Assembly (NCBI GenBank): GCA_002005505.1
Contig: KV908483.1
Location: 110,001 to 174,000, forward strand
Origin: Botryococcus braunii
Taxonomy: Eukaryota > Chlorophyta > Trebouxiophyceae
Direction: 5' to 3'
Length of the DNA stretch: 64,000 bases
The translations under genes and the position numbers were made by a program. The notes beneath the pieces were generated by a model. It searched no databases and had not been told where the DNA came from. It saw nothing but the letters and a program-made list of their open reading frames with translations. Positions 5,351-52,621 of the stretch are shown in pieces. The number at the start of each line of letters is the position of its first letter. Position 1 is the stretch's first letter.

Positions 5351-6081
5351 TGTTATAATAGTGAAAGATCATTTTGGTGCCTTTCCCTCAGAAGAGTAAT
5401 AGTGGCCAGATCAGCTCCAATTACCAGTGAGAACATTCATTAGAATGAGTAATAGGTGGCAGAACCTAGGAGTTCTGCCAGAACCAATCTAGACCAATTT
5501 TACGTTGATGAGGGAGGATGAGGTAATCAGACACGGTTTGCTCGAAAGGTTATATGCTCCTGGCTCGAAGGAATGAGGCACTTGATTGGGACATCAAAAG
5601 CACTTCGGGTGTTTGTCGTTTAACTGTTGCCAGTCAAGTCACCTCACTCACAGTCGCCACTGCTTGTTAACCGACATACAACAAGAGTGTCACCCGGGCT
5701 AAACACCCTCGTGCCGGGTCATACAGGTAAACTGTTGTCAGGACATTACGTGCACAAGAACAATGGATTAGGAAAGGGTCTAGATAATGTGTATTAGAAA
5801 GGTGCTAATGTTTTAGCTCATCGGACATCGGTAATGCAGACTATCAGTAACTTCGTAGATAGAGTAGTTTGAATTGCTGAGTGATGAGAGAGAGCAACAA
5901 GCATTGTAAGACTTGATTGGGACATCAAAAGCATTTCGGGTGTTTGTCGTTTAACTGTTGCCAGTCAAGTCACCTCACTCACAGTCGCCACTGCTTGTTA
6001 ACCGACATACAACAAGAGTGTCGCCGGGCTAAACACCCTCGTGCCGGGTCATACAGGAAACGCCGAACTCAGAAGTTTACA
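5351..6081 (+). repeat. CopA2 5' LTR
   Basis: TGTTATAATAG...GTTTACA, 731 bp, matching 18642-19370. It contains a conserved hairpin GGCAGAAC/GTTCTGCC, a TATAT box at 5551-5555 and two copies of a 147-bp module (5579-5726 and 5909-6056). The first module is followed by GTAAAC, the second by GAAACG; both end in CATACAG. Confidence 0.93.
5727..6056 (+). other. Putative LTR intron: GT-spacer-module-CAG unit of CopA2
   Basis: A 330-bp unit that begins with GTAAAC right after the first module's CATACAG and ends with the second module's CATACAG. Removing it gives exactly the short LTR form seen in CopA3. It may be a spliced 5' UTR intron or simply one period of a tandem duplication. Equivalent units: 19016-19345, 24474-24803, 27415-27744, 46694-47021, and 54241-54573 in CopB1. 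Confidence 0.5.
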
Positions 6082-6097
6082 GGTTATGGGCCCACCA
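6082..6097 (+). promoter_or_regulatory. CopA2 half-tRNA-iMet primer-binding site
   Basis: GGTTATGGGCCCACCA follows the LTR directly. It is complementary to the anticodon stem-loop region of initiator tRNA-Met (GGGCCCATAACC includes the CAU anticodon) and not to a tRNA 3' end. This is the priming mode known from Drosophila copia. All CopA copies share it. Confidence 0.85.
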
Positions 6098-6147: not shown

Positions 6148-6672
6148 ATGGCGCGAAAGAGACCAACCGGACGCATGAGCACGGGCCGACATAGACCTCC
6201 TCCGCCTCCACCTCCTCCTCCAACATACAACGAGCGAAGAAAGGCAGGAGGAGAGAAAGGACCACGAACGATCGAAGAACGAGCATTCCTGGTAAAGGAC
6301 TTTGTCAACGAAGCTCACGGACGGGGAGCACTCACGCCTCCTCGGTGGTTCCAAGAACGCTTCCCGATATATCCAGCCTATAAATTCACTCTGTGGGAAG
6401 TCTCATTCATCAACGGAGAGCCTGGATATCTAACACGTGCAATCTTTGAGAGGTGCCTACAGCAAACGGGAGGACCGTCACACGAATCTTATTGGACAGA
6501 GAAGGCAGCCTACGCAGCCATTGAGCTAGCTTTGAGCAGTCTGGGAGACGACTTCATTGACAGACTAATTCTCTACGGCAAGGGCGAGTTCCACGTGGAC
6601 GAGTGGGTCACAGAGGACGACAGTGAGGACGAGGACGGAGACTCCAGACTATCAGACAAGAGCAACGACTGA
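6148..6672 (+). CDS. CopA2 ORF1, 174-aa protein of unknown function upstream of gag
   Basis: Intact 174-codon ORF, 50 nt after the primer-binding site and 15 nt before the gag ATG. The N-terminus is basic with a poly-proline run (about residues 22-32), followed by TYNERRKAGGEKGPRT. A middle block is conserved in all copies (ERAFLVKDFV, YPAYKFT, SFINGEPGY, YWTEKAAYAAIE), and the tail is strongly acidic (EDDSEDEDGDS). No signal peptide, membrane segment, zinc finger or catalytic motif is visible. The start is the first ATG of the conserved block, the same as in the other copies. It is not part of gag: the frame relation to gag differs between copies. A structural, nucleic-acid-binding or regulatory role is possible, but nothing in the sequence decides it. 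Confidence 0.82.
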   Translation: MARKRPTGRMSTGRHRPPPPPPPPPTYNERRKAGGEKGPRTIEERAFLVKDFVNEAHGRGALTPPRWFQERFPIYPAYKFTLWEVSFINGEPGYLTRAIFERCLQQTGGPSHESYWTEKAAYAAIELALSSLGDDFIDRLILYGKGEFHVDEWVTEDDSEDEDGDSRLSDKSND

Positions 6673-7046
6673 CCAGGACCAAACAGCATGAAGAAGAAGG
6701 GTACCAGCACCAGCTCCAAATCCAAGTCAGCTGGTGAGGAGTCTACATCAACTCTTACCAGGGAACCATGCACTCCCAGTACCTCAAAGGGGGAAGGAGA
6801 CACCCTTCCCAAGGTCATTGCCACACAGGTCAAAGTCCATATAAAACTGCAGCGTAAAGGCCAGAACTTTGTGGGGTGGGACAACGCGTTCACAGCAGCC
6901 AATGATGCAAAGGGTTCTTTGCCTGCCATCCAAGAAGCTATGCCTGGGACTACTCATAATGCTGCAGCATTGTTGTTACTGTATGAATCAGTTCCTGAAG
7001 ACTGGTTGGGGGAGCTGTCAAGTAAACCATCGGCATATGATGCATA

Positions 7047-7099
7047 TGTGCATATGCACATATGCATATGGATATGCATATGCATATGCATATGCATAT
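7047..7099 (+). repeat. ATGCAT-type hexanucleotide microsatellite in gag
   Basis: A run of ATATGC/ATGCAT units replaces the codons for CKKF in the otherwise conserved YVHICKKFVGGY segment. It encodes an alternating Ile-Cys stretch. The expansion keeps the frame open. It is unique to this copy. Confidence 0.85.
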
Positions 7100-7988
7100 T
7101 TGTGGGAGGCTACAATCCTCAGGCTAATGCTGACTGGCTAAAGGAGATGTCCCGTGGCATGAAACAAGGTGAAACAATTTCCCAGTACGTCAATAGAATG
7201 ATCAATCTGAAAGGTTGCTTGAAGAGAAATGGTCATGATCTCCTGGATGGGCACGTGGCCACACAGATTGTGCAGGGCCTGCCTGCAGCTGCCAACTCCC
7301 CTGGACTACTGCCTACAGCCGTGGCTTATCCCCTGAACCAGCTGGCAGACCTCATCTCCACCACAGCAGAAGCAACGGGCTATAATGATGACCCAGATCT
7401 GCCTGCAGCGGTCATGACAGCGCTGGCTGCAGCAGTCCCTGCCCCTACTGCATGTGCTGTGACTCAGACCAGACAGCCTGCAGACACAGAGGCCAAGGTG
7501 GAGGTACGTGGTACGTGCAACTACTGCCACAAAAAGGGTCACTTCTGGAGAGACTGCCGCAAGAGACAGAGGGACGCAGAAACACAGAGAAATGTGGTAG
7601 CACCAGTGCAGCAACTGGCAGGCATGTGGCCCCAAGGTCAGTTCCCTGGAGGACCCCAGCCCCCACCAACAGTCCAGCATGTCTTCCCTGCAGCGGGAGC
7701 GTTCCCACTGCTGCATCCACCACCTGGTCCACCTTCTCCCCCGCCAGAAGGTATGCCACACGTGGTATCCTATAATGTTCTCAAACCATGCAAGGGGAGA
7801 ATATCCAAACAGTCCTGGTTGGTAGACGGTGGAGCGTCAGTCCATCTTGTCAATGATCTGTCACTACTGCATGCTCCCACAGTACATGCTGCTCCCATCC
7901 CTCTGCAGCTGGCCACGTCTGATGCAACAAGAGGAATTACTGCCACTGGATCAATCTGTCTATTGAATCAGCAATCTATCCCGCTGTG

Positions 7989-8026
7989 TGTAACAGGGGT
8001 TCAACGATCGGTGAACCCCTGTTACA
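7989..8026. mobile_element. 38-bp near-perfect palindromic insertion with 5-bp target duplication
   Basis: The insert begins TGTAACAGGGGTTCA and ends with its reverse complement TGAACCCCTGTTACA, with only eight bases between the arms. It is flanked by CTGTG at 7984-7988 and 8027-8031. The equivalent site in CopA3 (13959-13963, opposite strand) has a single CTGTG and no insert. The TG...CA ends and the 5-bp duplication look like integrase-mediated insertion. The first nine bases, TGTAACAGG, equal the first nine bases of the Gyp2 LTR. It encodes nothing and shifts the reading frame of CopA2. Confidence 0.8.
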
Positions 8027-9573
8027 CTGTGGCTGCATCATGTTCAGTGTGTTCCCTCTGCAACGATGAACATCTCGTCTGTTTCTGCTGCCCTTCGTGA
8101 TGGAGCCTGCTTTGCCACAGACAACATGGGTGCATTTACCACAGTCTCTGGCCCGAATGGCTGGAAGATGCCCATCAGAGCAGAAAAAGGCTTTTATTAT
8201 GTACATGACTGCCTATCTGTTCCCCCAGTGCAACGTTTGTAACCAGTGGCAGCTGCAATGAAGAACAAATTCAAGAAAAACCTGCAGCATGACTGTGCGA
8301 AACGATTTCTGTGGCACAGCAGAATGGGTCATCCGGGTGAACCATGGATGCAGCGCCTGAGCAACGAACAGCTGGTCACAGGCATTGATACTTCCCTGTC
8401 AACATGTGAGAACTGTCCAAAGTATTGTGAAGCGTGTATTGAGGGGAAGCACACCCGTCCTCCCTTTGGTGAAAGTTCCAGGCCTGCAATAAATCCCCTT
8501 GACAGAATCCATATTGACACTGTGGGCCCCATTTCACCAGCAGCAATCTCTGGGGAACGCTTTTGGGTGACTGTAGCTGATGAGGCGTCTGGATGGAAAG
8601 CTGTCCTACCAGTAAAGTCAAAGGATGTAATTGCCTCAGTTGTCCGGGACCTGATTCTATTTTGGCAGACAGAAAGAGGGACCACTGTCAAGTGCATTCG
8701 GTGTGACAGAGGCACAGAATTTATTAATTCCAGATTCAAGGAGTTCTGTGCGTCTCAGGGCACTAAGCTGGAGATGTCTGCACCCTACACTCCCCAGCAG
8801 AACGGGATAGCAGAGCGAGCCAACAGGACCTTGAAGGAGCGAACCAGAACCCTCCTCAATTTTGCAGGTGCCAGTCCAGTTATGTGGAAAGAGGCCCTAG
8901 AAACAGCCTTCATCCTCCTGAACATGGGACCCAGTACAGGCAGGCCTCTCACTCCTTGTGAATTATTCATGGGATACAAACCAGATGTATCACTTCTTCG
9001 TACTTGGGGATGCCTGGCATTTGTGCATGTGCCTGATCAGCAGAGGGGGGTATTTGCACCAAAGGCTGTGCCTGGCATGTTCACTGGTTATTCCCCAGTG
9101 TCCAAGGCATATCGTATTTATGTGGGAGGGGGAGTCTGGAGAGAGAGCAGAGATGTCCAATTTGTGGAACACATCCGAGGAGCCTCACGGGTGGGAATGT
9201 CCACTCTCCTGGACCAGCCACTGCAGTTCTCATATCCGGAAGGTTTGCCAGCCCAACAGCACCTCAGCAACCCGGCAGCTTCCTTACCTCAGTGCAGCAC
9301 TCGGAATCAGGCTGTCAGCGCTCCCTGCCCAAGCAGCAGACCTGACAGCACCCTCCCAGGACCCCCTGATCAGGCGGCAACCGAGCCTGCTTGTCAGGGG
9401 AAGCCTTCCCAAGAGGAGGACACCCCAGAAATTGTTCCTTGACCAAGTGAGGAACCACTCCAGCTGGATCTGGACCAGTCCGGGGTACTGGATACACTTC
9501 AGCAACTTGCGCGAGGAAGCTCTGACAGTGGGCAGCATCAACGGACCTTGGAGCGAGCACAGCAGTCACTCCG

Positions 9574-15249: not shown

Positions 15250-15773
15250 TCAGTCGTCGCTCCTTTCTGACAGTCTGGAGTCTCCGTCCTCGTCCTCACT
15301 GTCGTCCTCTGTGACCCACTCGTCCACGTGAAATTCGCCCTCGCCGCAGAGAATTAGACCATCAATGAAGTCGTCTCCCAGGCTGCTCAAAGCTAGCTCA
15401 ATCGCTGCGTAGGCTGCTTTCTCTGTCCAATAAGTTTCGTGCGATGGACCGCCCGTTTGCTGTAAGCACCTCTCAAAAATTGCTCGTGTTAGATATCCTG
15501 GTTCTCCGTTGATGAATGAGATTTCCCAAACAGTGAATTTATAAGCTGGATATATCGGAAAACGCTCTCGGAACCACCGAGGGGGCGTGAGTGCTCCCCG
15601 TCCGTGAGCTTCGTAGACGAAGTCCTTCACCAGGAAGCTCGTTCTTCTATCGTCCGTGGTCCTTTCTCTCCTCCTGCCTTTCTTCGCTCGTTATATGTTG
15701 GAGGAGGAGGTGGAGGTGGAGGAGGTCTACGTCCGCCCGTGCTCATGCGTCCGGTTGGTCTCTTTCGCGCCAT
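15250..15773 (-). pseudogene. CopA3 ORF1, one-base deletion
   Basis: Copy of the 174-aa upstream ORF, 524 bp instead of 525. The ATG is at 15773-15771. A single base is missing in the codons for ERAF near 15640, so the poly-proline N-terminus and the conserved C-terminal block are in different frames. The stop is 15 nt before the gag start, as in CopA1 and CopA2. Confidence 0.82.
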
Positions 15774-18641: not shown

Positions 18642-19370
18642 TGTTATAATAGTGAAAGAACATTTTGGTGCCTTTCCCCCAGAAGAGTAATAGTGGCCAG
18701 ATCAGCTCCAATTACCAGTGAGAACATTCATTAGAATGAGTAATAGGTGGCAGAACCTAGGAGTTCTGCCAGAACCAATCTAGACCATTTTACGTTGATG
18801 AGGGAGGATGAGGTAATCAGACACGGTTTGCTCGAAAGGTTATATGCTCCTGGCTCGAAGGAATGAGGCACTTGATTGGGACATCAAAAGCACTTCGGGT
18901 GTTTGTCGTTTAACTGTTGCCAGTCCAGTCACCTCACTCACAGTCGCCACTGCTTGTTAACCGACATACAACAAGAGTGTCGCCGGGCTAAACACCCTCG
19001 TGCCGGGTCATACAGGTAAACTGTTGTCAGGACATTACGTGCACAAGAACAATGGATTAGGAAAGGGTCTAGATAATGTGTATTAGAAAGGTGCTAATGT
19101 TTTAGCTCATCGGACATCGGTAATGCAGACTATCAGTAACTTCGTAGATAGAGTAGTTTGAATTGCTAAGTGATGAGAGAGAGCAACAAGCATTGTAAGA
19201 CTTGATTGGGACATCAAAAGCACTTCGGGTGTTGGTCGTTTAACTGTTGCCAGTCAAGTCACCTCACTCACAGTCGCCACTGCTTGTTAACCGACATACA
19301 ACAAGAGTGTCGCCGGGCTAAACACCCTCGTGCCGGGTCATACAGGAAACGCCGAACTCAGAAGTTTACA
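18642..19370 (+). repeat. CopA2 3' LTR
   Basis: 729 bp, two-module form, preceded by the purine-rich tract AGGCAAGGGGAAG (polypurine tract, about 18629-18641). Followed by the target duplication GATAG. Confidence 0.93.
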
Positions 19371-24098: not shown

Positions 24099-24828
24099 TG
24101 TTATAATAGTGAAAGAACATTTTGGTGCCTTTCCCTCAGAAGAGTAATAGTGGCCAGATCAGCTCCAATTACCAGTGAGAACATTTATTAGAATGAGTAA
24201 TAGGTGGCAGAACCTAGGAGTTCTGCCAGAACCAATCTAGACCAATTGTACGTTGATAAGGGAGGATGAGGTAATCAGACACGGTTTGCTCGAAAGGCTA
24301 TATGCTCCTGGCTCGAAGGAATGAGGCACTTGATTGGGACATCAAAAGCACTTCGGGTGTTTGTCACTTAACTGTTGCCAGTCAAGTCATCTCATTCACA
24401 GTCGCCACTGCTTGTTACTCGACATACAACAAGAGTGTCGCCGGGCTAAACACCCTCGTGCCGGGTCATACAGGTAAACTGTTGTCAGGACATCACATAC
24501 ACAAGAACAATAGATTAGGAAAGGGTCTAGATAATGTGTAATAGAAAGGTGCTAATGTTTTAGCTCATCGGACATCGGTAATGCAGACTATCAGTAACTT
24601 TGTAGATAGAGTAGTTTGAATTGCTGAGTGATGAGAGAGAGCAATAAGCATTGTAACACTTGATTGGGACATCAAAAGCACTTCGGGTGTTTGTCACTTA
24701 ACTGTTGCCAGTCAAGTCATCTCATTCACAGTCGCCACTGCTTGTTACTCGACATACAACAAGAGTGTCGCCGGGCTAAACACCCTCGTGCCGGGTCATA
24801 CAGGAAACGCCACGCTCAGAATTGTACA
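24099..24828 (+). repeat. CopA4 5' LTR
   Basis: 730 bp, TGTTATAATAG...ATTGTACA. Hairpin arms GGCAGAAC/GTTCTGCC lie at 24206-24227 and a TATA-like box TATAT at 24299-24303. Two 147-bp modules at 24327-24473 and 24657-24803 appear identical to each other, 330 bp apart. Confidence 0.93.
24299..24303 (+). promoter_or_regulatory. TATA-like box of CopA4 5' LTR
   Basis: TATAT sits 28 bp upstream of the first module. The same 27-28 bp distance holds in CopA2 (5551), CopA5 (TTTATG near 27239) and CopA6 (46521), and a TATTAA box lies about 31 bp upstream of the module in CopB1 (54074). This puts the predicted transcript start at the beginning of module 1 in every family. Confidence 0.55.
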
Positions 24829-24844
24829 GGTTATGGGCCCACCA
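24829..24844 (+). promoter_or_regulatory. CopA4 half-tRNA-iMet primer-binding site
   Basis: GGTTATGGGCCCACCA immediately after the LTR, complementary to the anticodon arm region of initiator tRNA-Met. Confidence 0.85.
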
Positions 24845-24894: not shown

Positions 24895-25419
24895 ATGGGA
24901 CGAACGAGACAGAGCGGGAGAATGGCCTCGGGCTCGTCAAGACCTGTGAGGTTTTCCCCACCTCGACCACCAACGTATGACAGTTTGAGAAGAGCTGGTG
25001 GAGAGACAGGACCACGAACACCTGAGGAACGAGCAATCATCGTCAAGGACTTCGTCAGCCGAGCTTACGGACAGGGGAGACTCGACCCTCCACAGTGGTT
25101 TAAACTGAGATTTCCAGTTTACCCTGCCTACAAAGTCACAGCCTGGGAGTGTTCCTTCATCAACGGCGACCCAGGATTCGTAACTCGAGCACTATTTGAA
25201 CGACACCTGCGGCAAGTCGGACGTCCGGACCAGGAAGAGTTCTGGGCAGAAAAGGCAGCGTACACAGCTGTGGAGACTGCTCTCGCCTCATTCGACGAGG
25301 ACTTCCTTCTTTCTCTATTGGGGAGTGTAAAGGGATACAGTCCAGAGGAGTGGTGCACAGAACCAGACAGCCAGGACGAGGACGGAGACTCGAAAATTTC
25401 AGAACGCGACGACGACTGA
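24895..25419 (+). CDS. CopA4 ORF1, 174-aa protein of unknown function
   Basis: Intact 174-codon ORF, the most divergent pair with CopA6. It has a shorter proline stretch (SPPRPPTYDSLRRAGG) but the same middle block (RTPEERAIIVKDFV, YPAYKVTAWECSFING, FVTRALFERHL) and acidic end (DSQDEDGDSKISE). Many differences from CopA2 are conservative (I/L/V, D/E), and the length is identical, which suggests selection on the protein. The stop lies 16 nt before the gag ATG and in a different frame. Function unknown. Confidence 0.82.
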   Translation: MGRTRQSGRMASGSSRPVRFSPPRPPTYDSLRRAGGETGPRTPEERAIIVKDFVSRAYGQGRLDPPQWFKLRFPVYPAYKVTAWECSFINGDPGFVTRALFERHLRQVGRPDQEEFWAEKAAYTAVETALASFDEDFLLSLLGSVKGYSPEEWCTEPDSQDEDGDSKISERDDD

Positions 25420-25435
25420 TCAGATCTTCAACAAA

Positions 25436-27063
25436 ATGGCAAAGAAGGGCTCAAGCACCAGTGAAGCATCAAAGTCAGCGGACGAGGAATCAACATCAAC
25501 CCCCACACGAGAGCCATGTACACCCAGTACCTCCAAGGGTGAGGGAGATAGTCTTCCCAAGGTTATTGCCACGCAAGTAAAGGTCCATATTAAGCTATTG
25601 CGTCATGGTCAGAACTTTACAGTCTGGGACAATGCGTTCACTGCTGCTAATAGTGCAAAGGGTTCCCTGCCTGCGATTCAAGAAGCCATGCCTGGTACTG
25701 TCCACAATGCTGCTGCTATGCTACTGATGTATGAATCAGTACCAGAAGAATGGTTGGGGGAGCTGTCTAGCAAGCCCTCTGCTTATGAGGCCTATGTATT
25801 TATCTGCAAGACATTTGTTGGTGGATACAACACCCAAGCCAATGCAGACTGGCTGAAGGAGATGGCAAGGGGCATGAAGAGAGGCGGCACTATGTCTCAG
25901 TATGTATCCAGGATGATCAATCTGAAGAGCTGCCTGAAACGTAATGGACATGATCTCCTGGATGGTCATGTGGCAACCCAGATAGTGCAGGGACTTCCAG
26001 CAGCACCCAACCCACCAGGATTGCTACCCACTGCAGTTGCTCAACCTTTGGATCAGCTGGCAGACCTGATCTCCACCACAGCAGAGGCCTCAGGGTATAA
26101 TGATGATGGGGAGCAACAGGCGGTGGTCATGATGGCTCAGCCTACCCCACCTGCTCATGTACCTGCACCAACAGCATGTGCGCTGAACCAACCCAAGCAG
26201 CCAGCAGAGGGCGACGCAAAGGGAGAGGTAAAGGGGACCTGCAACTACTGCCACAAAAGGGGACACTTCTGGAGAGACTGCCGCAAGAGGCAGAGGGATG
26301 CAGAGACCCAGAGGAACGTAGTTGCAGCTGTACAGCAGCTAGCTGGCATGTGGCCTCACGGGCAATTTCCTGGAGCACCTCAGCCACCGCCAACTGTGCA
26401 GCATGCGTTCCCTGGAGCTGGAGCATTCCCACTGTTGCATCCACCTCATGGTCCTCCCTCTCCCCCTTCAGAAGGTATGCCATACGTAGTGTCCTACAAT
26501 GTGCTGGACTCTCACTGCAATAAACAGTCCAAATAGTCCTGGCTTGTGGATAGTGGAGCGTCAGTGCACCTTGTGAACAGCCTGTCCCTGCTGCATGCCC
26601 CCACTGTACATACCAAGCCTATTCCCCTACAACTTGCCACTTCAGATGCAACAGGAGGAATCATTGCCACTGGCTCAGTTTGTCTATTGTCCCCACAGCA
26701 TGTACCACTGTGGCTGCATCATGTGCAGTGTGTTCCTTCAGCTACGACCAATATCCTTTCAGTATCTGCTGCCCTATGGTGCCTGCCTTGCCACAGAAGG
26801 TGTGGGAAGCTTTACAGCAGTGACAGGCCCAAATGGGTGGAGGATGCCAGTGAGTGCAGAAAATGGTCTGTACTATGTACACGACTTTTTGCCTGTGACA
26901 GCAAGTAAAACCCCAGGCCCAGTGACAGCTGCCTTGAAGAGAAAATGTAAGAAAAGCCTGAAGCACGACTGCACTAGACGGTTCCTGTGGCACAGCAGAT
27001 TGGGACACCCTGGAGAACCATGGATGCAACGTTTGAGCAGCGAGCAGTTAGTCACTCGCCTAG
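25436..27063 (+). pseudogene. CopA4 gag-protease, left part
   Basis: Copia gag from the ATG at 25436, CCHC knuckle (CNYCHKRGHFWRDC) near 26240, protease DSGAS near 26550 and the start of integrase (WHSRLGHPGEPW). An in-frame TAG at 26534-26536, just before the protease active site, replaces a CAG-type codon seen in other copies. About five bases are missing near 26777. The frame is cut at 27063 by CopA5. Confidence 0.9.
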
Positions 27064-27769
27064 TGTTATAATAGTGACAGAACATTTTGGTGCCTTTCCC
27101 TCAGAAGAGTAATAGTGGCCAGATCAGCTTCAATGAATAATCGGTGGCAGAACCTGGGAGTTTTGCCAGAACTCATCTAGACCAGTTATACGTTGATTAG
27201 GAAGGATGAGGTAATCAGACACGGTTTGCTAGAAAGGATTTATGACACCGGCGTGCAAGGACGAGGCACTTGATTGGGACATTAAAGGCACTTCGGGTGC
27301 TTATCTCTTGACTGTTGCCTATCAAGTCCTCATTCACATTCGGTCACTGCTTGTTCTCCTACACACAACAAGAGTACCGACGAGCTAATCACCCTTCGTG
27401 CCCGGGTCATACAGGTAACCTGACGTTACAAGCCTGAAGCCTCATTGACAATGGGTTAGGAAAGGTCTAGGTAATATTATTAAGTTGGTGCTAATGTTTT
27501 CCTCATTGATACACTGATAATGCAGACAATCGGTAGTTACGTAGATTACGTAGTTTGAATTACGGAGCGATGAGAGAAAGCTAGTAGCATTGTAATGACT
27601 TGATTGGGACATTAAAGGCACTTCGGGTGCTTATCTCTTGACTGTTGCCTATCAAGTCCTCATTCACATTCGGTCACTGCTTGTTCTCCTACACACAACA
27701 AGAGTACCGACGAGCTAATCACCCTTCGTGCCCGGGTCATACAGGGAACGCTGAACTCAGAAGTTTACA
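27064..27769 (+). repeat. CopA5 5' LTR
   Basis: 706 bp, TGTTATAATAGTGACAG...GTTTACA. Two-module form with modules ending at 27414 (followed by GTAACC) and 27744 (followed by GGAACG), 330 bp apart. Hairpin arms GGCAGAAC/GTTTTGCC lie at 27146-27167. Confidence 0.94.
27340..27380 (+). other. Conserved RNA hairpin in LTR module (CopA5)
   Basis: A 14-bp stem with two single-base bulges (G27349, C27345) and an 11-nt loop CTCCTACACAC: 27340-27355 pairs with 27367-27380. The equivalent hairpins in CopA6 and CopA3 keep the pairing through compensating base changes. Confidence 0.7.
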
Positions 27770-27785
27770 GGTTATGGGCCCACCA
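27770..27785 (+). promoter_or_regulatory. CopA5 half-tRNA-iMet primer-binding site
   Basis: GGTTATGGGCCCACCA directly after the 5' LTR. Confidence 0.85.
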
Positions 27786-27835: not shown

Positions 27836-28360
27836 ATGGCGCGAACGAGACAAACCGGACGTATGGGCACGGGTGGAAGTAGACGTCCTCCACCTCCACC
27901 TCCTCCTCCAACATATAACGAGCGAAGAAAGGCAGGAGGAGAGAAAGGTCCACGGACGATAGAAGAACGAGCATTCCTGGTGAAGGACTTCGTCCACGAA
28001 GCTCACGGAAGGGGAGCACTCACACCCCCTCGGTGGTTCCGAGAGCGTTTTCCGATATACCCAGCTTATAAATTCACTGTTTGGGAAATCTCATTCATCA
28101 ACGGAGAGCCAGGATATCTGACACGAGCAATTTTTGAGAGGTGCTTACAGCAAACGGGAGGTCCATCGAACGAAGCTTATTGGACAGAGAAAGCTGCCTA
28201 TGCAGCGATTGAGCTATCTTTGAGCAGCCTGGGAGACGACTTCATTGATCATCTAATCCTCTACGGTGAGGGAGAATTTCACGTAGACGAGTGGGTCACA
28301 GAGGACGACAGTGAGGACGAGGACGGAGACTCCAGATTGTCAGAAAGGAGCGAAGACTGA
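27836..28360 (+). CDS. CopA5 ORF1, 174-aa protein of unknown function
   Basis: Intact 174-codon ORF close to that of CopA2: basic start MARTRQTGR, a poly-proline run, TYNERRKAGGEKGPRTIEE, the conserved FPIYPAYKFTVWE and SFINGEPGYLTRAIFE blocks, and an acidic end EDDSEDEDGDS. The stop TGA is 13 nt before the gag ATG at 28374, and gag is in another frame. Because this element has identical LTRs and otherwise intact genes, the ORF was present in a recently mobile copy. Confidence 0.85.
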   Translation: MARTRQTGRMGTGGSRRPPPPPPPPTYNERRKAGGEKGPRTIEERAFLVKDFVHEAHGRGALTPPRWFRERFPIYPAYKFTVWEISFINGEPGYLTRAIFERCLQQTGGPSNEAYWTEKAAYAAIELSLSSLGDDFIDHLILYGEGEFHVDEWVTEDDSEDEDGDSRLSERSED

Positions 28361-28373
28361 CAAGCTCTGCAGC

Positions 28374-29666
28374 ATGGCTAAGAAAGGCGCCCGCACCGGT
28401 GAAGAATCGCAGTCAGCTGAGGAAGAGTCTACCTCGTCTCCCACGCGAAGTCCGGGCACGCCAAGCACATCAAGGGGTGAGGGAGATGTACTTCCCAAGG
28501 TCATAGCCACCCAAGTCAAGGTGCATATTAAGCTGGATCGTCATGGCACAAATTTTGTGGTATGGGACAATGCTTTTACTGCGGCCAATAGTGCTAAGGG
28601 TTCCTTTCCTGCCATTCAGTCTGCCATGCCTGGGACTATCCATAATGCGGCTGCAATGCTCCTACTGTACGAGTCAGTTCCAGAGGAATGGTTGGGGGAG
28701 TTGTCAAGTAAACCGTCAGCATATGATGCATATCTGTTCATTTGCAAGAAATTTGTGGGTGGTTACAACACTCAAGCCAATGCAGACTGGCTGAAGGAAA
28801 TGTCTAGAGGGATGAGACGTGGAGAAACGATCTCTCAGTACGTGTCCAGAATGATCAATCTCAAGAGCTGCTTGAAACGCAATGGACATGACCTCTTGGA
28901 TGGTCATGTGGCCACTCAGATAGTGCAGGGACTACCAGCTGCAGCCAATCCTCCCGGGCTGCTACCCACTGCAGTAGCTTATCCCCTTGATCAGCTGGCA
29001 GCTCTCATTTCCACCACAGCCGAGGCCTCTGGCTACAAGGATGATGGAGAACAGCCTGCCATGGTGATGAAAGCAATGCCTGCTCAACTGGAGGCAGCCC
29101 CAGTCCCCTCTACTAGCGGGGCAATTCCCTCCAGACAGCCAGCAGACACAGAATCAAGGGGAGAAGTGAGAGGCACGTGCAACTACTGCCACAAGAAAGG
29201 CCATTTTTGGAGAGACTGCCGTAAACGCCAAAGGGATGCAGAGACACAACGCAATGTGGTGGCAGCTGTACAACAACTGGCAGCCATGTGGCCCCACGGG
29301 CAGTTTCCTGGAGCAGCTCAGCCACCTCCCAGCGTGCAGCATGCATTCCCTGGCACTGGAGCGTTCCCACTGCTGCACCCTCCTCCAGGCTCACCTTCTC
29401 CTCCATCGGAAGGTATGCCATACGTGGTATCATATAATGTGCTGGAAGGCAGTAGACACCAACAGTCCAAACAGTCTTGGCTTGTGGACAGTGGAGCGTC
29501 TGTACATCTTGTGAACAATCTGTCCCTGCTGCATGCCCCTACAGTCCATGACCACCCTATTCCACTGCTGCTCGCTACATCTGATGCCACTGGGGGTATT
29601 GTTGCTACTGGGTCAGTGTGTCTCATGTCCTCTCAGCATGTTCCAGTGTGGCTGCATCATGTTCAG
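28374..29666 (+). CDS. CopA5 gag-pol, first part (gag, protease)
   Basis: First 431 codons of an uninterrupted Copia polyprotein. The N-terminus is Ser/Thr/Glu-rich. The Gag body includes a W-L-G-E-L-S-S segment typical of UBN2-type Copia gag. A CCHC zinc knuckle (CNYCHKKGHFWRDC) begins at about residue 269, then a proline-rich stretch, then the protease catalytic site WLVDSGAS with the aspartate at about 372. The frame stops at 29666, where Gyp2 inserted, and continues exactly at 35140. The ATG at 28374 is chosen because all CopA gags start at the equivalent M-(A/K)-K-K-G. Confidence 0.92.
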
Positions 29667-29965
29667 TGATACAGTAGAAACGGCCAAAGGATGCGAAAAC
29701 AATGGTTACAAGTTGTTTGGGCTCCACCTCAGTACCCGTCCAGTCCGGCCCGGTCCTTCCTCTGCCAAAGCCTTATTCTATCCTGTTCTAAGTGTGTCCC
29801 TGTCTCCATCGCCAATGCGCCTTGTCAAGTAAGGGGTCACTCCCTTGGCGCGTGAAGTAGCCACTTCTTGGCGTGGAGGAACATAACTCACGAAGGGACC
29901 TTTATGGAGGTCCAAATCCTCGTGGTCCGGTCATTTTCCTATAACACGCGACTATTCCTGTTACA
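29667..29965 (-). repeat. Gyp2 3' LTR
   Basis: 299 bp; on the minus strand TGTAACAGGAATAG...CTGTATCA. The polypurine tract AAGGGGGGGAGGG (minus strand) abuts it at 29966-29978. Confidence 0.93.
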
Positions 29966-35139: not shown

Positions 35140-38100
35140 TGTGTTCCCTCAGCTACCACCAATATTTTATCAGTATCTGCTGCTCTGCGTGATGGAATCC
35201 GGTTCAGTACAGATAGACTTGGAGCATTCACTGCTGTCTCAGGACCGAGTGGTTGGCAGATGCCTGTGAAACCAGAGAATGGCCTGTATTATATCCACAA
35301 CTGTCTCCCAGTAGCACCTGTGACGGTTCCTTATTCAGTAACAGCTGCTCTGAAGAAGAAATGCTCCAAAGCTCAAAGCCATGACTGTGCCAAACGTTTC
35401 CTGTGGCACAGCAGATTGGGACACCCAGGAGATCCGTGGATGAAACGCCTGAGCAGTGAGCAACTGGTTACTGGCCTAGACACAGTATTGTCCCCGTGTG
35501 AAAAGTGTCCTAAGTATTGTGAAGCTTGCATTGAGGGGAAGCATGCACGTCCCCCGTTTGGTGAAAGTTCTAGACCTGCTGAGAAACCCCTTGACAGAAT
35601 CCACATTGACACTGTGGGCCCCATAGCACCAGCAGCCATTACTGGGGAACGCTTTTGGGTAACTGTAACTGATGAGGCATCTGGGTGGAAGGCAGTGCTG
35701 CCAGTGAAGTCAAAGGATGTAATTGGAGCTGTTGTCAGAGACCTAATTTTGTACTGGCAAACTGAGAAGGAAACTACAGTGAAGTGCATCCGCAGTGACA
35801 GAGGCACAGAGTTCCTAAATGCCAAGTTCAAGGAATTTTGTGCATCCCAGGGCACTAAGCTGGAGACATCTGCCCCATATACCCCTCAGCAGAACGGAGT
35901 TGCGGAGAGAGCCAACAGGACCCTCAAGGAACGCACCAGAACCCTCCTCAATTTTGCTGCAGCTAGCCCTGTTATGTGGAAGGAAGCCCTGGAGACAGCA
36001 TGCACCCTCCTGAATATGGGACCCAGCACAGGCAGGCCCCTATCTCCCTGCGAAATGTTCATGGGATATAAACCAGACGTATCCTTGCTGCGCACACGGG
36101 GATGCCTAGTCTTTGTGCACGTTCCTGATCAGCAGAGGGGGGCATTTGCACCAAAGGCTGTGGCTGGGATGTTTACTGGTTACTCTCCCTTGTCAAAGGC
36201 ATACCGTGTCTATATGGGAGGGGGAATCTGGAGAGAGAGCAGAGATGTCCAATTTGTAGAACACATTCGAGGAGCTACTCGGGTGGGAAAGGCAGTTCTC
36301 CCTGACCAGCCTCAGCAGTTCTCATACCCTGAAGACTTACCAGGGCAAATGCACAGCAGCAACCCAGTGGTGTCATTACCACAGTGCAGCACGCAGAATC
36401 AGACTGTCAGCAGCCCATGCTCCAGCAGTAGACCTGACAGCTCCTTCCCAGTACCCTCTGACCAGGCTGCAACTGAGCCTGTTAGTCAGGGGAAGCCTTC
36501 CCAAGAGGAGGGCATTCTCAATGTGACTCCTGAATCGAGCACGGGAGAACAGCAGCCGGACTTGGATCAGTCCGGGGCTCTGGACGCTATTCAACGACTG
36601 GCGCGAGGAAGTTCGGACAGCGGGCATCACCAACAGATATTAGAGCGAGCACAGCAGTCACTGCGTAACACTCATCCGACAAAGACCATTCCACCTCCGG
36701 ACGGACTGTCGCGGGCTCAACGCTATGAGCAACGAACTGCGGCTCGAGATATCCTGCTGGCACAGGATAAGGGAGAGAGCTGTGAGCGAGAGGGGATGAC
36801 TGACGGTGACACAGAGTCACAGGGACCAGGGGAAGTGCAGGAATTGGGTCAGGACACCGAGAGACCTCCTTCACTTGTAAGAGATGAGAGGGGGGCAGTC
36901 TCTGATCAGACTGCAGATGGTCCAAGCGAGCTGAGCTGTATGGGTGGGACCTGCTCAGTGCCTGAGAGACATGTTAGAGATGGGACCTCAATCTGTGATG
37001 CCCAAGGACAATGTGGTGCCAGCCACGCAAGTGTGGGCCATGCTTGGGAGTGTGCTGCTGGGCCTGCGCCCCAGCGCTCATGTCTAGTAGGGAGCAGACA
37101 GAGAGAGAGAGAGACATGGGCACAGTCTCAAGACAGACCAAGAGCTCATGCAATGCAGAGTGGTTCAAATGCCTGTGAGAGTCCAGACGGGACTGCAAAC
37201 CGTCAGCCATGTGAGAGTGTGTCTGAGGAGGTGAATCGGAAGCCTGGACAGTGTGAGAATTCCCCCAATTACAAGAGCTTTCCGAGAGGTACATGTGTTT
37301 GGGAGGATGATGTGAGAGTGACTGGCAGCAAACTTGAGAGGGCAAGCTGTGAGTCTAAGAGAGAGAAAGATCAGAGGGGGGGATCTGGATCTTTGCCCAC
37401 AGTCCCCACGTGCAGTGCGGCGACATTCAGCGAAAGAGTAGTGGGTGACAGTGAGAGTAAGAGTAAGCAAGATCAGGGAAAGCACACTGGTGTGCGATTT
37501 GGGAAGATTAGTGTGCCTTCCAGTTTAAAGGAAGCTCAGCAGTCCCCACAGTGGGAATATTGGAAGGCTGCTATGCAGGAGGAGCAAAACTCCTTAGATG
37601 CTCATGAGGTGATGGAGTTTGTTCCAAGACCTCGTGGTCACAAAGTAATCCCAGTTCACTGGATTTTCTCAGTGAAAATGGATGCTCATGGTAATGTGCT
37701 TAGGTTCAAGGCTAGGCTGGTGGCTCAAGGGTGTAGGCAAATTCCAGGAGTGGATGTAATGGAGGTATTTGCTCCCACCAGCAGTTATGGGTCTAGAAGA
37801 GCTTTGCTGTCAGTGGCTGCACAGGAGGGTCTTGAAATTCACCAGGTGGATGTCAAGACTGCATTTTTAAATGGTGAATTAGAGGAGGAGGTCTATGTCA
37901 CACAACCTCCTGGGTTTGAGAATGGGGATGGGAACACTGTGTGTCGCTTGAAGAAGGCACCGTATGGCCTGAAGCAAGCTCCAAGGGCATGGCATAAGAC
38001 CCTGAATGAGAAGCTACTTACCATGGGGTATGAGGTGTGCAAGAGTGATGCTGGGGTCTATGTGAAATGTTCTGTGGATGGAGGGAAATCCTTTGTGCTG

Positions 38101-39090
38101 ATTTATGTTGATGATCTGCTGATAGTTTCCAAGGGCATGAGTGAGATTGAAAGAGTGAAAGGGTTGCTTAAGCAGGAGTTCACCATTCATGATCTAGGAG
38201 AGGTGAAAGATTTCTTGGGCTGCCAAGTGATGAGAGATAGAGAGAAAGGGTTGATTTCTTTGAGCTGCATCCCCAAGATTGATGCCCTAGTTGAGAAATT
38301 TGGGCTGGATCAGGAGTCTGTGGGGCCTGACACCCCTATGACTAAGGATTTTGTGGCCACACAGCAACCTATGTCTAAGGACAACAGTGCCAGCATTGGA
38401 GCTGGGAGTCCCTTACCACCAGGTCACAGATATTGTGAACTGGTTGGGTCACTGTTGTACATTGCCAACACCACAAGGCCTGATATTTCCCAGGCTGTGG
38501 GAGTGCTTTCCAGGTATAGGATTACTCCCACCACTGCTCACTGGAATGAAGCCATCAGAGTGTTGAAATATCTGATGGCTACCAGGGATCTTGTGTTAGT
38601 ACTTGGAGGGAAGGACACAGAGCTGGAGGGCTTTGTGGATGCAGATTATGGTGGTGATCAGGATCACAGGTTTTCCACTACTGGTTACGTAATTCGTGTG
38701 TTTGGAGGAGCAGTAGTTTGGGGAAGCAAAAAGCAGTCTGCAGTGGCCACATCCACTGTAGAGGCTGAGTTTATGGCGGCAAGTGCAGCTGTCAAAGAGG
38801 CCAATTGGATGAAGGGATTCCTGGAAGAAATTGGTATTTCTCCATGGAATGTGAAGATCCACTGTGATAATCAGGGATGCATCAATCATCTCAGAAATCC
38901 AGTGTTCTCTAAGCATACCAAGCACATTGCAATCAGCTTTCATTTTGCTCGGGAAGCTATTGCATTGGGGCAGGTTGATGTGAAATACGTTCCTTCTGCT
39001 AGGAATGTGGCAGATATATTTACCAAGCCTCTGACAAGGCAGGTATTTCAGAGTCATCGTGAGGCTCTGGGATTGACCAAGTTTTTGTGA
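35140..39090 (+). CDS. CopA5 gag-pol, second part (integrase, RT, RNase H)
   Basis: 1316 codons plus stop, in frame with 28374-29666 once Gyp2 and one target copy are removed; the whole polyprotein would be about 1747 residues. Integrase zinc region: WHSRLGHPG (about residue 521 of the whole) and CEKCPKYCEAC. Core: IDTVGP (about 588), RSDRGTEF, TPQQNGVAERANRT. Then a long low-complexity linker with cysteine-containing segments (QCGASHASVGHAWEC, CVWEDDVRV). RT has [12 protein letters not shown] and YVDDLLIV (about 1420). RNase H has FVDADYGGD (about 1596), STVEAEFMA and CDNQGCI. The stop follows LTKFL. Confidence 0.93.
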   Translation, partial: CVPSATTNILSVSAALRDGIRFSTDRLGAFTAVSGPSGWQMPVKPENGLYYIHNCLPVAPVTVPYSVTAALKKKCSKAQSHDCAKRFLWHSRLGHPGDPWMKRLSSEQLVTGLDTVLSPCEKCPKYCEACIEGKHARPPFGESSRPAEKPLDRIHIDTVGPIAPAAITGERFWVTVTDEASGWKAVLPVKSKDVIGAVVRDLILYWQTEKETTVKCIRSDRGTEFLNAKFKEFCASQGTKLETSAPYTPQQNGVAERANRTLKERTRTLLNFAAASPVMWKEALETACTLLNMGPSTGRPLSPCEMFMGYKPDVSLLRTRGCLVFVHVPDQQRGAFAPKAVAGMFTGYSPLSKAYRVYMGGGIWRESRDVQFVEHIRGATRVGKAVLPDQPQQFSYPEDLPGQMHSSNPVVSLPQCSTQNQTVSSPCSSSRPDSSFPVPSDQAATEPVSQGKPSQEEGILNVTPESSTGEQQPDLDQSGALDAIQRLARGSSDSGHHQQILERAQQSLRNTHPTKTIPPPDGLSRAQRYEQRTAARDILLAQDKGESCEREGMTDGDTESQGPGEVQELGQDTERPPSLVRDERGAVSDQTADGPSELSCMGGTCSVPERHVRDGTSICDAQGQCGASHASVGHAWECAAGPAPQRSCLVGSRQRERETWAQSQDRPRAHAMQSGSNACESPDGTANRQPCESVSEEVNRKPGQCENSPNYKSFPRGTCVWEDDVRVTGSKLERASCESKREKDQRGGSGSLPTVPTCSAATFSERVVGDSESKSKQDQGKHTGVRFGKISVPSSLKEAQQSPQWEYWKAAMQEEQNSLDAHEVMEFVPRPRGHKVIPVHWIFSVKMDAHGNVLRFKARLVAQGCRQIPGVDVMEVFAPTSSYGSRRALLSVAAQEGLEIHQVDVKTAFLNGELEEEVYVTQPPGFENGDGNTVCRLKKAPYGLKQAPRAWHKTLNEKLLTMGYEVCKSDAGVYVKCSVDGGKSFVLIYVDDLLIVSKGMSEIERVKGLLKQEFTIHDLGEVKDFLGCQVMRDREKGLISLSCIPKIDALVEKFGLDQESVGPDTPMTKDFVATQQPMSKDNSASIGAGSPLPPGHRYCELVGSLLYIANTTRPDISQAVGVLSRYRITPTTAHWNEAIRVLKYLMATRDLVLVLGGKDTELEGFVDADYGGDQDHRFSTTGYVIRVFGGAVVWGSKKQSAVATSTVEAEFMAASAAVKEANWMKGFLEEIGISPWNVKIHCDNQGCINHLRNPVFSKHTKHIAISFHFAREAIALGQVDVKYVPSARNVADIFTKPLTRQVFQSHREALGLTKFL

Positions 39091-40452: not shown

Positions 40453-40468
40453 GGTTATGGGCCCACCA
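40453..40468 (+). promoter_or_regulatory. CopA6 half-tRNA-iMet primer-binding site
   Basis: GGTTATGGGCCCACCA directly after the LTR. Confidence 0.85.
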
Positions 40469-40509: not shown

Positions 40510-41034
40510 ATGGGACAAACGAAGCAGAGCGGGAGGATGTCGACCGGCAGTAAAAGACCTTTTATTCCCCCAACTCCTTCACCACCTACATATGATAGCC
40601 TGAGGAGAGCTGGAGGAGATACGGGACCGAGAACACCAGAAGAACGAGCATTTCTAGTGAAGGATTTTGTCAGCCGAGCGTACGGACTGGGCAAAGTCGA
40701 ACAGCCTCTGTGGTTCAGACGACGATTCTCTGTTTACCCAGCCTACAAAGTAACTGCGTGGGAGTGTTCATTCATCAACGCGGACCCAGGCTTCGTCACG
40801 CGAGCATTATTTGAACGACACCTACAACAGCTCGGAGGACCCAGCAAACCCGAGTATTGGGAAGAAAGGGCAGCCTACACAGCAGTGGAGTGTGCTCTCG
40901 CCACTCTTGACGAGGACTTCCTACTTTCCTTTCTGGGCAGCAGAAAAGGATTCAGCCCAGAGGAGTGGTGCACGGACACAGACAATGGAGACGAGGACGG
41001 GGACTCGCAGCGGTCAGAACCTAACGCAGACTGA
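40510..41034 (+). CDS. CopA6 ORF1, 174-aa protein of unknown function
   Basis: Intact 174-codon ORF, closest to that of CopA4: MGQTKQSGRMSTG start, a proline-rich stretch (PPTPSPPTYDSLRRAGG), GPRTPEERAFLVKDFV, YPAYKVTAWECSFIN, FVTRALFERHLQQLGG, and an acidic tail (DNGDEDGDS). The stop is 11 nt before the gag ATG, in a different frame. No known domain is visible. Confidence 0.83.
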   Translation: MGQTKQSGRMSTGSKRPFIPPTPSPPTYDSLRRAGGDTGPRTPEERAFLVKDFVSRAYGLGKVEQPLWFRRRFSVYPAYKVTAWECSFINADPGFVTRALFERHLQQLGGPSKPEYWEERAAYTAVECALATLDEDFLLSFLGSRKGFSPEEWCTDTDNGDEDGDSQRSEPNAD

Positions 41035-41045
41035 GTAACATCAGC

Positions 41046-44000
41046 ATGGCGAGAAAGAGATCTAAATCAAGGGAGCCATCTGAGGAGGAGCCCACAACAG
41101 AGGAAGCATCTACATCGTCTCCCACACGACAGCCGTGTACACCCAGCACATCAAAGGGCGAGGGAGATGTACTCCCCAAGGTCATAGCCACTCAAGTCAA
41201 AGTGCATATTAAACTGGATCGTCATGGCACAAATTTTGTGGTATGGGACAATGCTTTCACTGCTGCCAATAGTGCCAAGGGTTCCTTTCCTGCCATTCAG
41301 TCAGCCATGCCTGGAACTATCCACAATGCGGCTGCAATGCTTCTGCTGTATGAGTCAGTTCCAGAGGAATGGTTAGGAGAAGTGTCAAGTAAGCCGTCAG
41401 CTTATGATGCATATCTGTTTATTTGCAAGAAATTTGTGGGTGGCTACAACACTCAAGCAAATGCAGACTAGCTGAAGGAAATGTCCAAAGGGATGAGACG
41501 TGGAGAAACGATCTCTCAGTATGTGTCTAGAATGATAAATCTCAAAAGCTGCTTGAAACGCAATGGACATGACCTCTTGGATGGTCATGTGGCCTCCCAG
41601 ATTGTGCAGGGACTGCCAGCAGCAGCTAATCCTCCAGGGATGTTGCCCACTGCAGTAGCTTACCCCCTGGATGATCTGGCAGCTCTCATTTCCACCACTG
41701 CAGAGGCGTCTGGCTACAACGATGATGGAGAACAGCCTGCCATGGTGATGAAGGCAATGCCTGCTCAACGAGAGACTGATCCAGCCCCTTCCACTAGCGG
41801 GGCCAATCCCTCCAAACAGCCAGCAGACTCAGAATCAAGGGGAGAAGTGAGAGGCACGTGCAACTACTGCCACAGGAAAGGCCATTTTTGGAGAGACTGC
41901 CGCAAACGTCAAAGGGATGCAGAGACACAACGCAATGTGGTGGCAGCGGTACAGCAACTTGCTGCCATGTGGCCCCAAGGGCAGTTTCCTGGTGCACCCC
42001 AGCCACCTCCAAGCGTGCAGCATGCATTCCCAGGCACTGGAGCGTTCCCACTACTGCACCCTCCTCCAGGCCCACCTTCTCCTCCCTCAGAAGGTATGCC
42101 ATACGTGGTATCTTATAATGTGCTGGATGGCAGTAAGCACCAACAGTCCAAACAGTCGTGGCTTGTGGATAGTGGAGCGTCTGTACATCTTGTGAACAAC
42201 CTGTCCCTGCTGCATGCCCCTACAGTACATGACCACCCTATTCCACTGCTGCTTGCTACATCTGATGCCACTGGGGGTATTGTTGCTACTGGGTCAGTGT
42301 GTCTCATGTCCTCTCAGCATATTCCTGTGTGGCTGCATCATGTCCAGTGTGTTCCCTCAGCCACCACCAATATTCTCTCAGTATCTGCTGCTCTGCGCGA
42401 TGGAATCCGGTTCAGTACAGATAGACTGGGAGCATTCACTGCTGTCTCAGGACCGAGTGGTTGGCGGATGCCTGTGAAACCAGAGAATGGTCTCTATTAT
42501 ATCCACAACTGCCTCCCAGTACCGCCAGTGAAGGTTCATTATTCAGTGACTGCTGCCCTGAAGAAGAAATGCTCCAAAGGTCTAAGTCATGACTGTGCCA
42601 AACGTTTCCTGTGGCACAGCAGATTGGGACACCCAGGAGACCCCAGGATGAAACGCCTGAGCAGTGAGCAACTGGTTACTGGCCTAGACCCCTTGATGTC
42701 CCCCTGTGAAAAGTGTCCTAAGTACTGTGAAGCATGCATTGAGGGGAAGCATGCACGTCCCCCATTTGGTGAAAGCTCTAGACCTGCTGAGAAACCCCTT
42801 GACAGAATCCACATTGACACTGTGGGTCCCATATCACCAGCAGCCATTACTGGGGAACGCTTTTGGGTAACCGTAACTGATGAGGCATCTGGGTGGAAGG
42901 CAGTGCTGCCAGTGAAGTCAAAAGATGTAATTGGAGCTGTTGTCAGAGACCTAATTTTGTATTGGCAAACTGAGAAGGAAACTACAGTGAAGTGCATCCG
43001 CAGTGACAGAGGGACAGAGTTCTTAAATGCCAAGTTCAAGGAATTTTGTGCATCCCAGGGCACTAAGCTGGAGACATCTGCCCCATATACCCCTCAGCAG
43101 AATGGAGTTGCTGAGAGAGCCAACAGAACCCTCAAGGAGCGCACCAGGACCCTCCTCAATTTTGCTGCAGCAAGCCCTGTTATGTGGAAGGAAGCCCTGG
43201 AGACAGCCTGCACCCTCCTAAATATGGGACCCAGCACAGGCAGGCCCCTATCTCCCTGCGAAATGTTCATGGGATATAAGCCAGATGTATCCTTGCTGCG
43301 CACTTGGGGATGCCTTGCATTTGTGCACGTTCCTGACCAGCAGAGGGGGGCCTTTGCACCGAAGGCTGTGGCTGGGATGTTCACTGGTTACTCTCCAGTG
43401 TCAAAGGCATATCGTATCTATATGGGGGGGGGGGATCTGGAGAGAGAGCAGAGATGTTCAATTTGTGGAACACATTCGAGGAGCTACTCGGGTGGGAATG
43501 GCTGTTCTCCCTGACCAGCCTCAGCAGTTTTCATACCCTGAAGACTTATCAGGGCAATTGCACAGCAGCAATCCAGTGGTGCCATTGTCACAGCGCAGTA
43601 TGCAGAACCAGACTGTCAGCAGCCCATGCTCCAGCAGTAGACCTGACAGCTCCTTCCCGGTACCCTCTGACCAGGCTGCAACTGAGCCTGATAGTCAGGG
43701 GAAGCCTTCCCAAGAGGAGGGCATTCTCATTGTGTCTCCCGAAGCAAGCACGGGAGAGCAGCAGCCGGACCTGGATCAGTCCGGGGCTCTGGACGCTATT
43801 CAACGACTGGCGCGAGGAAGTGTAGACAGCGGACAACATCATCAGACTTTAGAGCGAATACAGCAGTCACTGCGTAACACGCATCCGGCTACTACCATCC
43901 CGCCTCCGGACGGACTGTCGCGGGCTCAACGCTATGAGCAACGAACTGCGGCTCGAGATATCCTGCTGGCACAGGATAAGGGAGAGAGCTGTGAGCGAGA

Positions 44001-52533: not shown

Positions 52534-52621
<88 letters not shown>

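Follow-up and report, generated by a model that had tools for sequence, protein, structure and literature searches.

The window analyzed here, a 64,000-nucleotide stretch of the genome of the green alga Botryococcus braunii, contains four intact copies of an open reading frame, hereinafter ORF1, that precedes gag in retrotransposons of the CopA type. Each copy consists of 174 codons followed by a stop, and all four are on the plus strand, at positions 6148-6672 (P0001), 24895-25419 (P0002), 27836-28360 (P0003) and 40510-41034 (P0004). These copies had been reported in an earlier sequence-only reading of the window and were reproduced at the same coordinates. The length of exactly 174 codons given in that reading holds for the four window copies but not elsewhere: most of the CopA copies that we fetched comprise 173-176 codons, and the full-length diverged relatives of ORF1 comprise 159-176. 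The proteins encoded at 24895, 27836 and 40510 are, respectively, 58, 90 and 57% identical to the protein encoded at 6148. Two partial copies accompany the intact ones, namely the C-terminal end of the ORF1 of CopA1, an element truncated by the window start, which was located by ORF1 similarity at 3-77 on the plus strand, as previously described, and a disrupted fragment covering residues 46-174 on the minus strand (15253-15639; one stop is listed for this copy).

The carrying element belongs to the Copia type, given that in the Pfam annotation of the ORF at 35260-39087 the integrase is located upstream of the RVT_2 reverse transcriptase (rve at residues 108-209, slightly below the cut-off; RVT_2 at residues 783-1027, E = 1.1e-64). 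A 5′ LTR of the TG...CA form at 5351-6081 and a 3′ LTR at 18642-19370 delimit the element of the 6148 ORF1 on the plus strand; in this element, the one analyzed in this respect, 722 of the 729 aligned LTR bases are identical, and a GATAG target-site duplication is found on the outer flanks, just before the 5′ LTR and just after the 3′ LTR. The sequence on both sides reads as a single, interrupted Gypsy element. Nested between the two LTRs is a minus-strand element of the CopA type (reverse LTR starts at 16229 and 9963). The 5′ LTRs of the elements carrying the ORF1 copies at 24895 and 27836 are located at 24099-24828 and 27064-27769, respectively, both on the plus strand.

In the four window copies, ORF1 lies between a probable primer binding site and gag. 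The probable site, TTATGGGCCCACCA, is found at 6084-6097 (plus strand) and recurs at 24831-24844, 27772-27785 and 40455-40468, in each case shortly upstream of an ORF1. We take this motif to be approximately complementary to the anticodon half of the initiator tRNA-Met, presumably reflecting half-tRNA priming comparable to that of Drosophila copia; the motif itself includes an ATG. Downstream, on the same strand, gag begins 15, 16, 13 and 11 nt past the stop codons of P0001, P0002, P0003 and P0004, respectively (6688-8100; 25436-26536; 28374-29669, with a weak Retrotran_gag_2 match below the cut-off; and 41046-41471, the first part of the ORF). Another Copia family, on the minus strand at approximately 55-62 kb, yielded no ORF1 in a tblastn search with the ORF1 proteins. 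Near the end of a Copia frame, at 51735-52637, the window also contains a long run of Arg-Glu dipeptides (RERERE...), presumably a simple-repeat expansion.

Distribution of ORF1 and selection on its sequence

The proteins nearest to ORF1 are gene models of B. braunii, a trebouxiophyte (jgi/Botrbrau1). Searches of the 176-Mb assembly with ORF1 queries produced at least 150 scored matches each, from 755-798 first-look candidates, and therefore the genome contains at least several hundred copies. Among the best 150 genome matches, 130 contain no internal stop (one of these 130 enters a run of N). Profile searches extended the family to P0009-P0019, which include further Botryococcus models, proteins from jgi contigs, and P0016 and P0017. 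The relatives at approximately 40-50% identity come from the same genome and from jgi contigs, and those at approximately 30% identity, P0016 and P0017, from ENA contigs of about 1 kb; a search of viral contigs with the queries A1, P0017, A2 and P0012 detected no ORF1 relatives. The genome-wide copies and the relatives on other contigs rule out a fragment present only at this locus, a possibility that had been raised in the sequence-only reading. Its description of ORF1 as a family-specific protein stands insofar as the protein is distinct and conserved, but the distribution is wider than one family, and nothing found here speaks for its guess of a role in nucleic-acid binding or RNA fate.

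Several individual loci deserve mention. An open frame of 2655 aa that could pass for an ORF1-gag fusion is a run of N in L074. Positions 1-700 of L043 belong to a more diverged Copia element that has its own ORF1 before gag and is disrupted by a CopA LTR; this ORF1 is 47% identical to P0001 and contains one in-frame TGA. In L081 (150-851, minus strand), a copy from a diverged lineage with many near relatives among the genome matches has an open frame and ATA at the expected ORF1 start, the ATA being a feature seen in the L081 copy.

From the 83 ORF1 places that were kept, 71 distinct intact ORFs (169-179 aa) were used for dN/dS estimates and ATG counts. This sample is non-random, consisting of the top-scoring matches of P0003 and P0002 together with 20 hand-picked places, and for two of its members, L071 and L077, an upstream ATG was taken as the start. 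The dN/dS ratio, proposed as a check in the sequence-only reading and calculated here by pooled pairwise Nei-Gojobori comparison (the pairs share copies and hence are non-independent), is in the range of 0.12-0.18, far from 1, which indicates purifying selection. Specifically, the ratio is 0.182 for 1686 pairs at 60-80% nucleotide identity (dS 1.57, near saturation), 0.118 for 330 pairs at 80-93%, and 0.144 for 385 pairs at 93-98.5%. In a frame control with 715 pairs, dN/dS was 0.13 in frame vs 1.62 and 1.45 in the shifted frames; for gag codons 1-120, the ratio is 0.11. Together, the dN/dS values and the shifted-frame controls rule out a non-functional leader ORF, and it is virtually certain that ORF1 encodes a real protein.

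The constraint is unevenly distributed along the protein. In the 60-80, 80-93 and 93-98.5% bins, respectively, dN/dS is 0.156, 0.070 and 0.100 for the core (residues 25-146), 0.205, 0.286 and 0.532 for the N-terminal tail (1-13), 0.467, 0.529 and 0.492 for the linker (14-24), and 0.180, 0.193 and 0.154 for the C-terminal tail. In the deeper comparisons, the N-terminal tail is thus under constraint, albeit weaker than that on the core; among close pairs, the constraint is not clear.

ORF1 and gag are partly unlinked across the loci L001-L080. Of the 340 pairs in which gag (codons 1-120) is ≥93% identical, 47 show less than 75% identity in ORF1; the reverse pattern was seen in 7 of 367 pairs. 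Over one shared set of 522 pairs, dS is 0.60 for gag vs 0.28 for ORF1. These observations suggest either an exchange of modules through template switching or a difference in mutation or in selection at silent sites.

The ORF1-gag junction and access to gag

A gag ATG was assigned in 65 of the 71 copies (in the other six, the rule used yielded none or an earlier ATG was chosen). The distance between ORF1 and gag is 11-18 nt in 64 of these 65 copies and 62 nt in the remaining one, and, relative to ORF1, gag is read in frame 0 in 22 copies, in frame 1 in 31 and in frame 2 in 12. The presence of gag in all three frame relations bears out the earlier view that ORF1 does not constitute an N-terminal portion of gag and, with gag being a separate downstream ORF, rules out a displaced gag segment; no gag family is found among the Pfam matches of ORF1. 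That gag requires a second route of initiation, as also previously claimed, is likewise supported.

The ORF1 sequences are strongly depleted of ATG triplets. The mean number of out-of-frame ATGs is 0.62 per ORF1 vs 3.12 expected from synonymous-codon shuffles, with a count under the expectation in 69 of the 71 copies, and for all frames combined the observed/expected ratio is 0.36 in ORF1 vs 1.89 in gag (the first 519 nt past the gag ATG in 54 copies). This depletion fits leaky scanning to gag, that is, ribosomes reaching the gag start by scanning through ORF1. Two other features are less easily reconciled with leaky scanning: the leader between the primer binding site and ORF1 contains 1-4 ATGs (53 copies; for L071 and L077, the true start may be among those counted), and the start context of ORF1, judged from positions -3 and +4, does not look weak, with G or A at -3 in 70/71 copies and G at +4 in all 71. 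The gag start has A at -3 in 63 of 65 copies.

In a green alga, leaky scanning on bicistronic mRNAs has been put to the test, and the median ratios reported upstream of ORF2 in two species are 0.49 and 0.43 (PMC11291117). These bicistrons resemble the CopA arrangement in the short ORF1, the small inter-ORF gap and the ATG depletion before ORF2, and differ in that they are cellular genes with a weak Kozak-like ORF1 context, whereas the CopA context is not evidently weak (PMC11291117). The alternative route, termination-reinitiation after ORF1, would be in line with the gaps of 11-18 nt, whatever the frame, in 64 of 65 copies. Nevertheless, we consider reinitiation unlikely, although far from negligible: the ATG depletion (0.36 in ORF1 vs 1.89 in gag) is what is expected for scanning through ORF1, the green-algal precedent involves leaky scanning (PMC11291117), and in the diverged relative L043 the ORF1-gag gap, judged by eye, is approximately 44 nt. 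On these sequence features, bicistronic translation with leaky scanning to gag seems the likelier of the two routes.

The N-terminal region of ORF1 and the histone H3 tail

The ORF1 protein begins with a flexible, H3-like N-terminus, continues with a linker rich in proline and a conserved helical domain, and in CopA ends in an acidic C-terminus. AlphaFold2 predicts a confident helical core flanked by a low-confidence tail and acidic end (pLDDT 79.2 and pTM 0.72 for the whole protein; 84.0 and 0.79 for the core alone). Comparison of the core with the PDB and with viral models revealed no significant fold match, and no histone is among the non-significant matches listed. Our guess is that the core is a tethering or dimerization unit that presents the tail.

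The N-terminus resembles the tail of histone H3, as can be seen by comparing P0003, MARTRQTGRMGTGG, with H3, MARTKQTARKSTGG; in P0001, the H3-tail-like segment corresponds to codons 1-13 (6148-6186, plus strand). When a diverse ten-protein ORF1 profile was searched against all PDB sequences, it produced 13 weak matches (E 0.36-9.5), all of them to H3 or H3-like proteins and all aligned from the N-terminus. An N-terminal profile of 13 lineages, which omitted P0005, P0006, P0008, P0012, P0015 and P0017, reached a best E-value of 4.7e-6, and the best 60 of its 136 matches with E ≤ 10 were all H3 or H3-like; with a 20-row profile, to which P0005, P0012, P0017 and locus rows were added, including lineages unlike H3, the best E-value was 1.7e-5, the best 60 of 132 matches were again all H3 or H3-like, and the match to H3 begins at residue 1. 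Both N-terminal profiles postdate the first H3 matches, and the H3 matches, representing one family, count as one finding. In single-sequence PDB searches with P0018, P0016, P0009 and P0003, H3 was listed in none of the four, and hence the link to H3 depends on the profiles and the permutation tests. A Pfam search (E ≤ 10) with P0001-P0004 and ten members of A2 matched no histone family.

In the permutation tests, the position-specific score for H3 residues 1-16, derived from all 34 rows of alignment A4, was 35.3 bits, a value attained in 0 of 20,000 column permutations, and the same result was obtained for CopA (24 rows) and for the rest (10 rows) separately; in the register scan, one of 24 registers was positive, namely register 0. 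When the N-termini of 16 individual proteins were shuffled, the actual score was reached at most twice in 20,000 shuffles for seven proteins, 24-57 times for four, and 277 and 371 times for P0007 and P0019, respectively. For P0011, P0006 and P0017 it was reached in thousands of the 20,000 shuffles, such that these three are not H3-like by this measure. The status of P0006 as a tail-less exception was rejected, the annotated start being internal: when translated from an ATG further upstream, L071 and L077 give MARTRKTGRMSTG, whereas L073 has ACG at this site. Among the diverged proteins, P0014 and P0018 contain RTKQTARK, and P0016, which is approximately 30% identical to the others, contains RQTARKST. 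The similarity to the H3 tail exceeds a composition effect, and on the sequence comparisons it is very probably not due to chance; overlooked in the sequence-only reading, it points to chromatin.

In CopA, the position equivalent to H3-K9 is occupied by methionine in 70 of the 71 distinct copies and by isoleucine in one; in the window, the respective Met codons are at 6175-6177, 24922-24924, 27863-27865 and 40537-40539. The H3-R8 position is Arg in 70/71 copies, specified by five different codons, and the H3-G12 position is Gly in 69/71. Gly is also found at the H3-A7 position in 69/71 copies, and the H3-S10 position is variable (Ser in 41, Gly in 17, Ala in 8, Arg in 4 and Cys in 1). The 71 ORFs contain 150 in-frame ATGs in total, just 9 of which (by subtraction) are neither the initiator nor the K9-position Met, so that the K9-position ATG is retained where ATGs are avoided; this Met might be retained as an alternative start. 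In diverged lineages, the K9 position is Lys in P0014, P0018, L082 and P0016 and Arg in P0013 and P0019. Given these residues, inhibition cannot be taken as a shared ancestral role without further argument, and the shared function may extend beyond inhibition, as the Lys and Arg forms may be substrate decoys or may bind another partner.

A possible H3K9M-like decoy and its alternatives

In many hosts, transposons are silenced via H3K9 methylation. The residues around the K9 position are among those read by the respective enzymes: SUV39H1 is described as reading K4-G12 and requiring R8, and SUV39H2 as reading R8, S10, T11 and G12 (PMC8303541), and G9a-type enzymes are described as depending critically on the arginine that precedes the target lysine (PMC2797608). 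The H3K9M substitution strengthens binding by Clr4 in a SAM-dependent manner, has also been seen bound to G9a, and blocks H3K9 methylation dominantly and dose-dependently (PMC5030085). A natural K27M-like mimic is known as well, namely EZHIP, a non-histone protein (PMC12713659). In the host genome, searches for the domains of such enzymes detected 11 fragments with SET-domain matches and four SRA matches, one of them above the cut-off; the Pre-SET search yielded no match in the host genome or in any control.

The best explanation that we can offer, by analogy with H3K9M, is that ORF1 encodes an H3-tail mimic, K9M-like in CopA, that traps an H3K9 methyltransferase and counters silencing; we put this forward tentatively, with confidence a little short of even. 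Under this scenario, ORF1, the second protein of a Copia lineage, whose coding sequence lies in the 5′ part of the element RNA, would be made alongside gag and would then enter the nucleus. The CopA tail would occupy the SET-domain pocket of the host H3K9 methyltransferase, with the Met at K9 and the Arg at R8 constituting an unmethylatable decoy that retains the enzyme. As a result, H3K9 methylation would fall during element expression, and element copies would escape silencing. The K9M decoy mechanism, with all its biochemistry, is about as tentative as the overall explanation, and it is likewise inferred that both ORFs are translated and that the ORF1 protein enters the nucleus, binds the methyltransferase and counters silencing. 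A broader version, in which the algal Copia elements possess a dedicated H3-tail mimic, the CopA form is a K9M-like trap, the Lys and Arg branches are, respectively, methylatable and inert decoys, and the variation reflects an arms race over a single residue, is slightly more doubtful still.

Several observations argue against the decoy: dN/dS among close pairs is 0.53 in the tail vs 0.10 in the core; the S10 position is variable although SUV39H2 is described as reading S10 (PMC8303541); and the H3-A7 position is Gly in 69/71 copies. The H3 likeness itself is weakened by the three of the 16 N-termini (P0011, P0006 and P0017) that fail their own shuffles, even if the P0006 start is internal. 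The lineages with Lys, Arg or Met at the K9 position all show H3 likeness, a shared function of which may not need that residue. This pattern is compatible with the tail being a peptide that docks onto H3 readers, importins or histone chaperones and so delivers the element RNA or the integration complex to chromatin, the Met being merely tolerated. Removal of the initiator Met from Met-Ala and Met-Gly starts is a processing rule, and with such starts the ORF1 proteins would expose an H3-like N-terminus. However, Met is near-invariant in CopA (70/71) while its neighbors, such as the S10 position, vary, and it is kept despite the general shortage of ATGs, and we regard docking as unlikely but a serious contender.

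A further possibility, to which we assign a similarly low probability, is that the tail is a basic nuclear-localization or RNA-binding peptide, with a coincidental or no longer functional likeness to H3, and that ORF1 acts in the packaging or regulation of RNA. N-termini of a basic, disordered kind are common, constraint on the tail is weaker than on the core, in which the main activity presumably resides and which has no significant fold match, and single-sequence searches missed H3. Yet the order of residues, and not only their kind, matches H3, as indicated by the 0/20,000 column permutations and by the shuffles of own sequences (≤2/20,000 for 7 of 16 proteins), and the match starts from residue 1. 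Finally, the N-terminus might be a captured first exon of a host H3 gene that is drifting and has no present function of its own. In the host H3 genes, the tail stretch (residues 1-35 or 1-37) agrees with canonical H3 at 95-97% and was matched separately, as if it were an exon of its own, but the dN/dS values of the ORF1 tail in the deeper comparisons (0.205 and 0.286, vs 0.467 and 0.529 in the linker) speak against drift, and this origin appears highly improbable.

We know of no transposon that encodes a histone-tail mimic, and none was found among the best matches of larger sets in the open-licence literature. LTR elements with an additional ORF are a known kind, as are histone mimics and anti-silencing proteins of transposons, whereas a K9M-like tail mimic in a retrotransposon is a combination that we have not met. 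A close parallel to the CopA tail is the H3K9M histone, whose N-terminal tail likewise has Met at K9 preceded by Arg at R8, but which is a laboratory or disease mutant histone, whereas ORF1 is a non-histone protein with a putative effect (PMC5030085). EZHIP/CATACOMB is, similarly, a non-histone protein with a conserved R-M motif that replaces the target lysine of the PRC2 substrate; however, it is a cellular gene of placental mammals, the motif is C-terminal, and the target is H3K27 instead of H3K9 (PMC12713659).

Among anti-silencing factors, VANC of the Arabidopsis VANDAL elements is also encoded by a transposon, although these are DNA transposons, VANC binds DNA sequence-specifically, and histone mimicry is not mentioned in the portions available (PMC10398659, PMC5735166). 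The geminivirus TrAP is a parasite protein that inhibits the plant H3K9 methyltransferase SUVH4/KYP, but it is encoded by a DNA virus and binds the catalytic domain, with no statement of histone mimicry in the part of the source at hand (PMC4606454). With respect to gene organization, Ogre-type elements likewise have an additional ORF after the 5′ LTR and ahead of gag; by their description, they are set apart as Ty3/Gypsy elements with a far longer ORF (1527 bp in Mtr70) (PMC2533021). The AlkB domain of orchid Ty3/Gypsy elements is likewise an extra LTR-element protein proposed to counter host surveillance, differing in being a recognizable enzyme domain that is carried by Gypsy elements and is implicated in RNA demethylation (PMC9289625).

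If the proposed decoy function is true, ORF1 would be a natural counterpart, in a mobile element, of the K-to-M oncohistones, and the Lys, Arg and Met variants in related elements would be comparable with one another and directly testable with peptides. Moreover, a Copia lineage would be added whose second cistron seems suited to green-algal leaky scanning.
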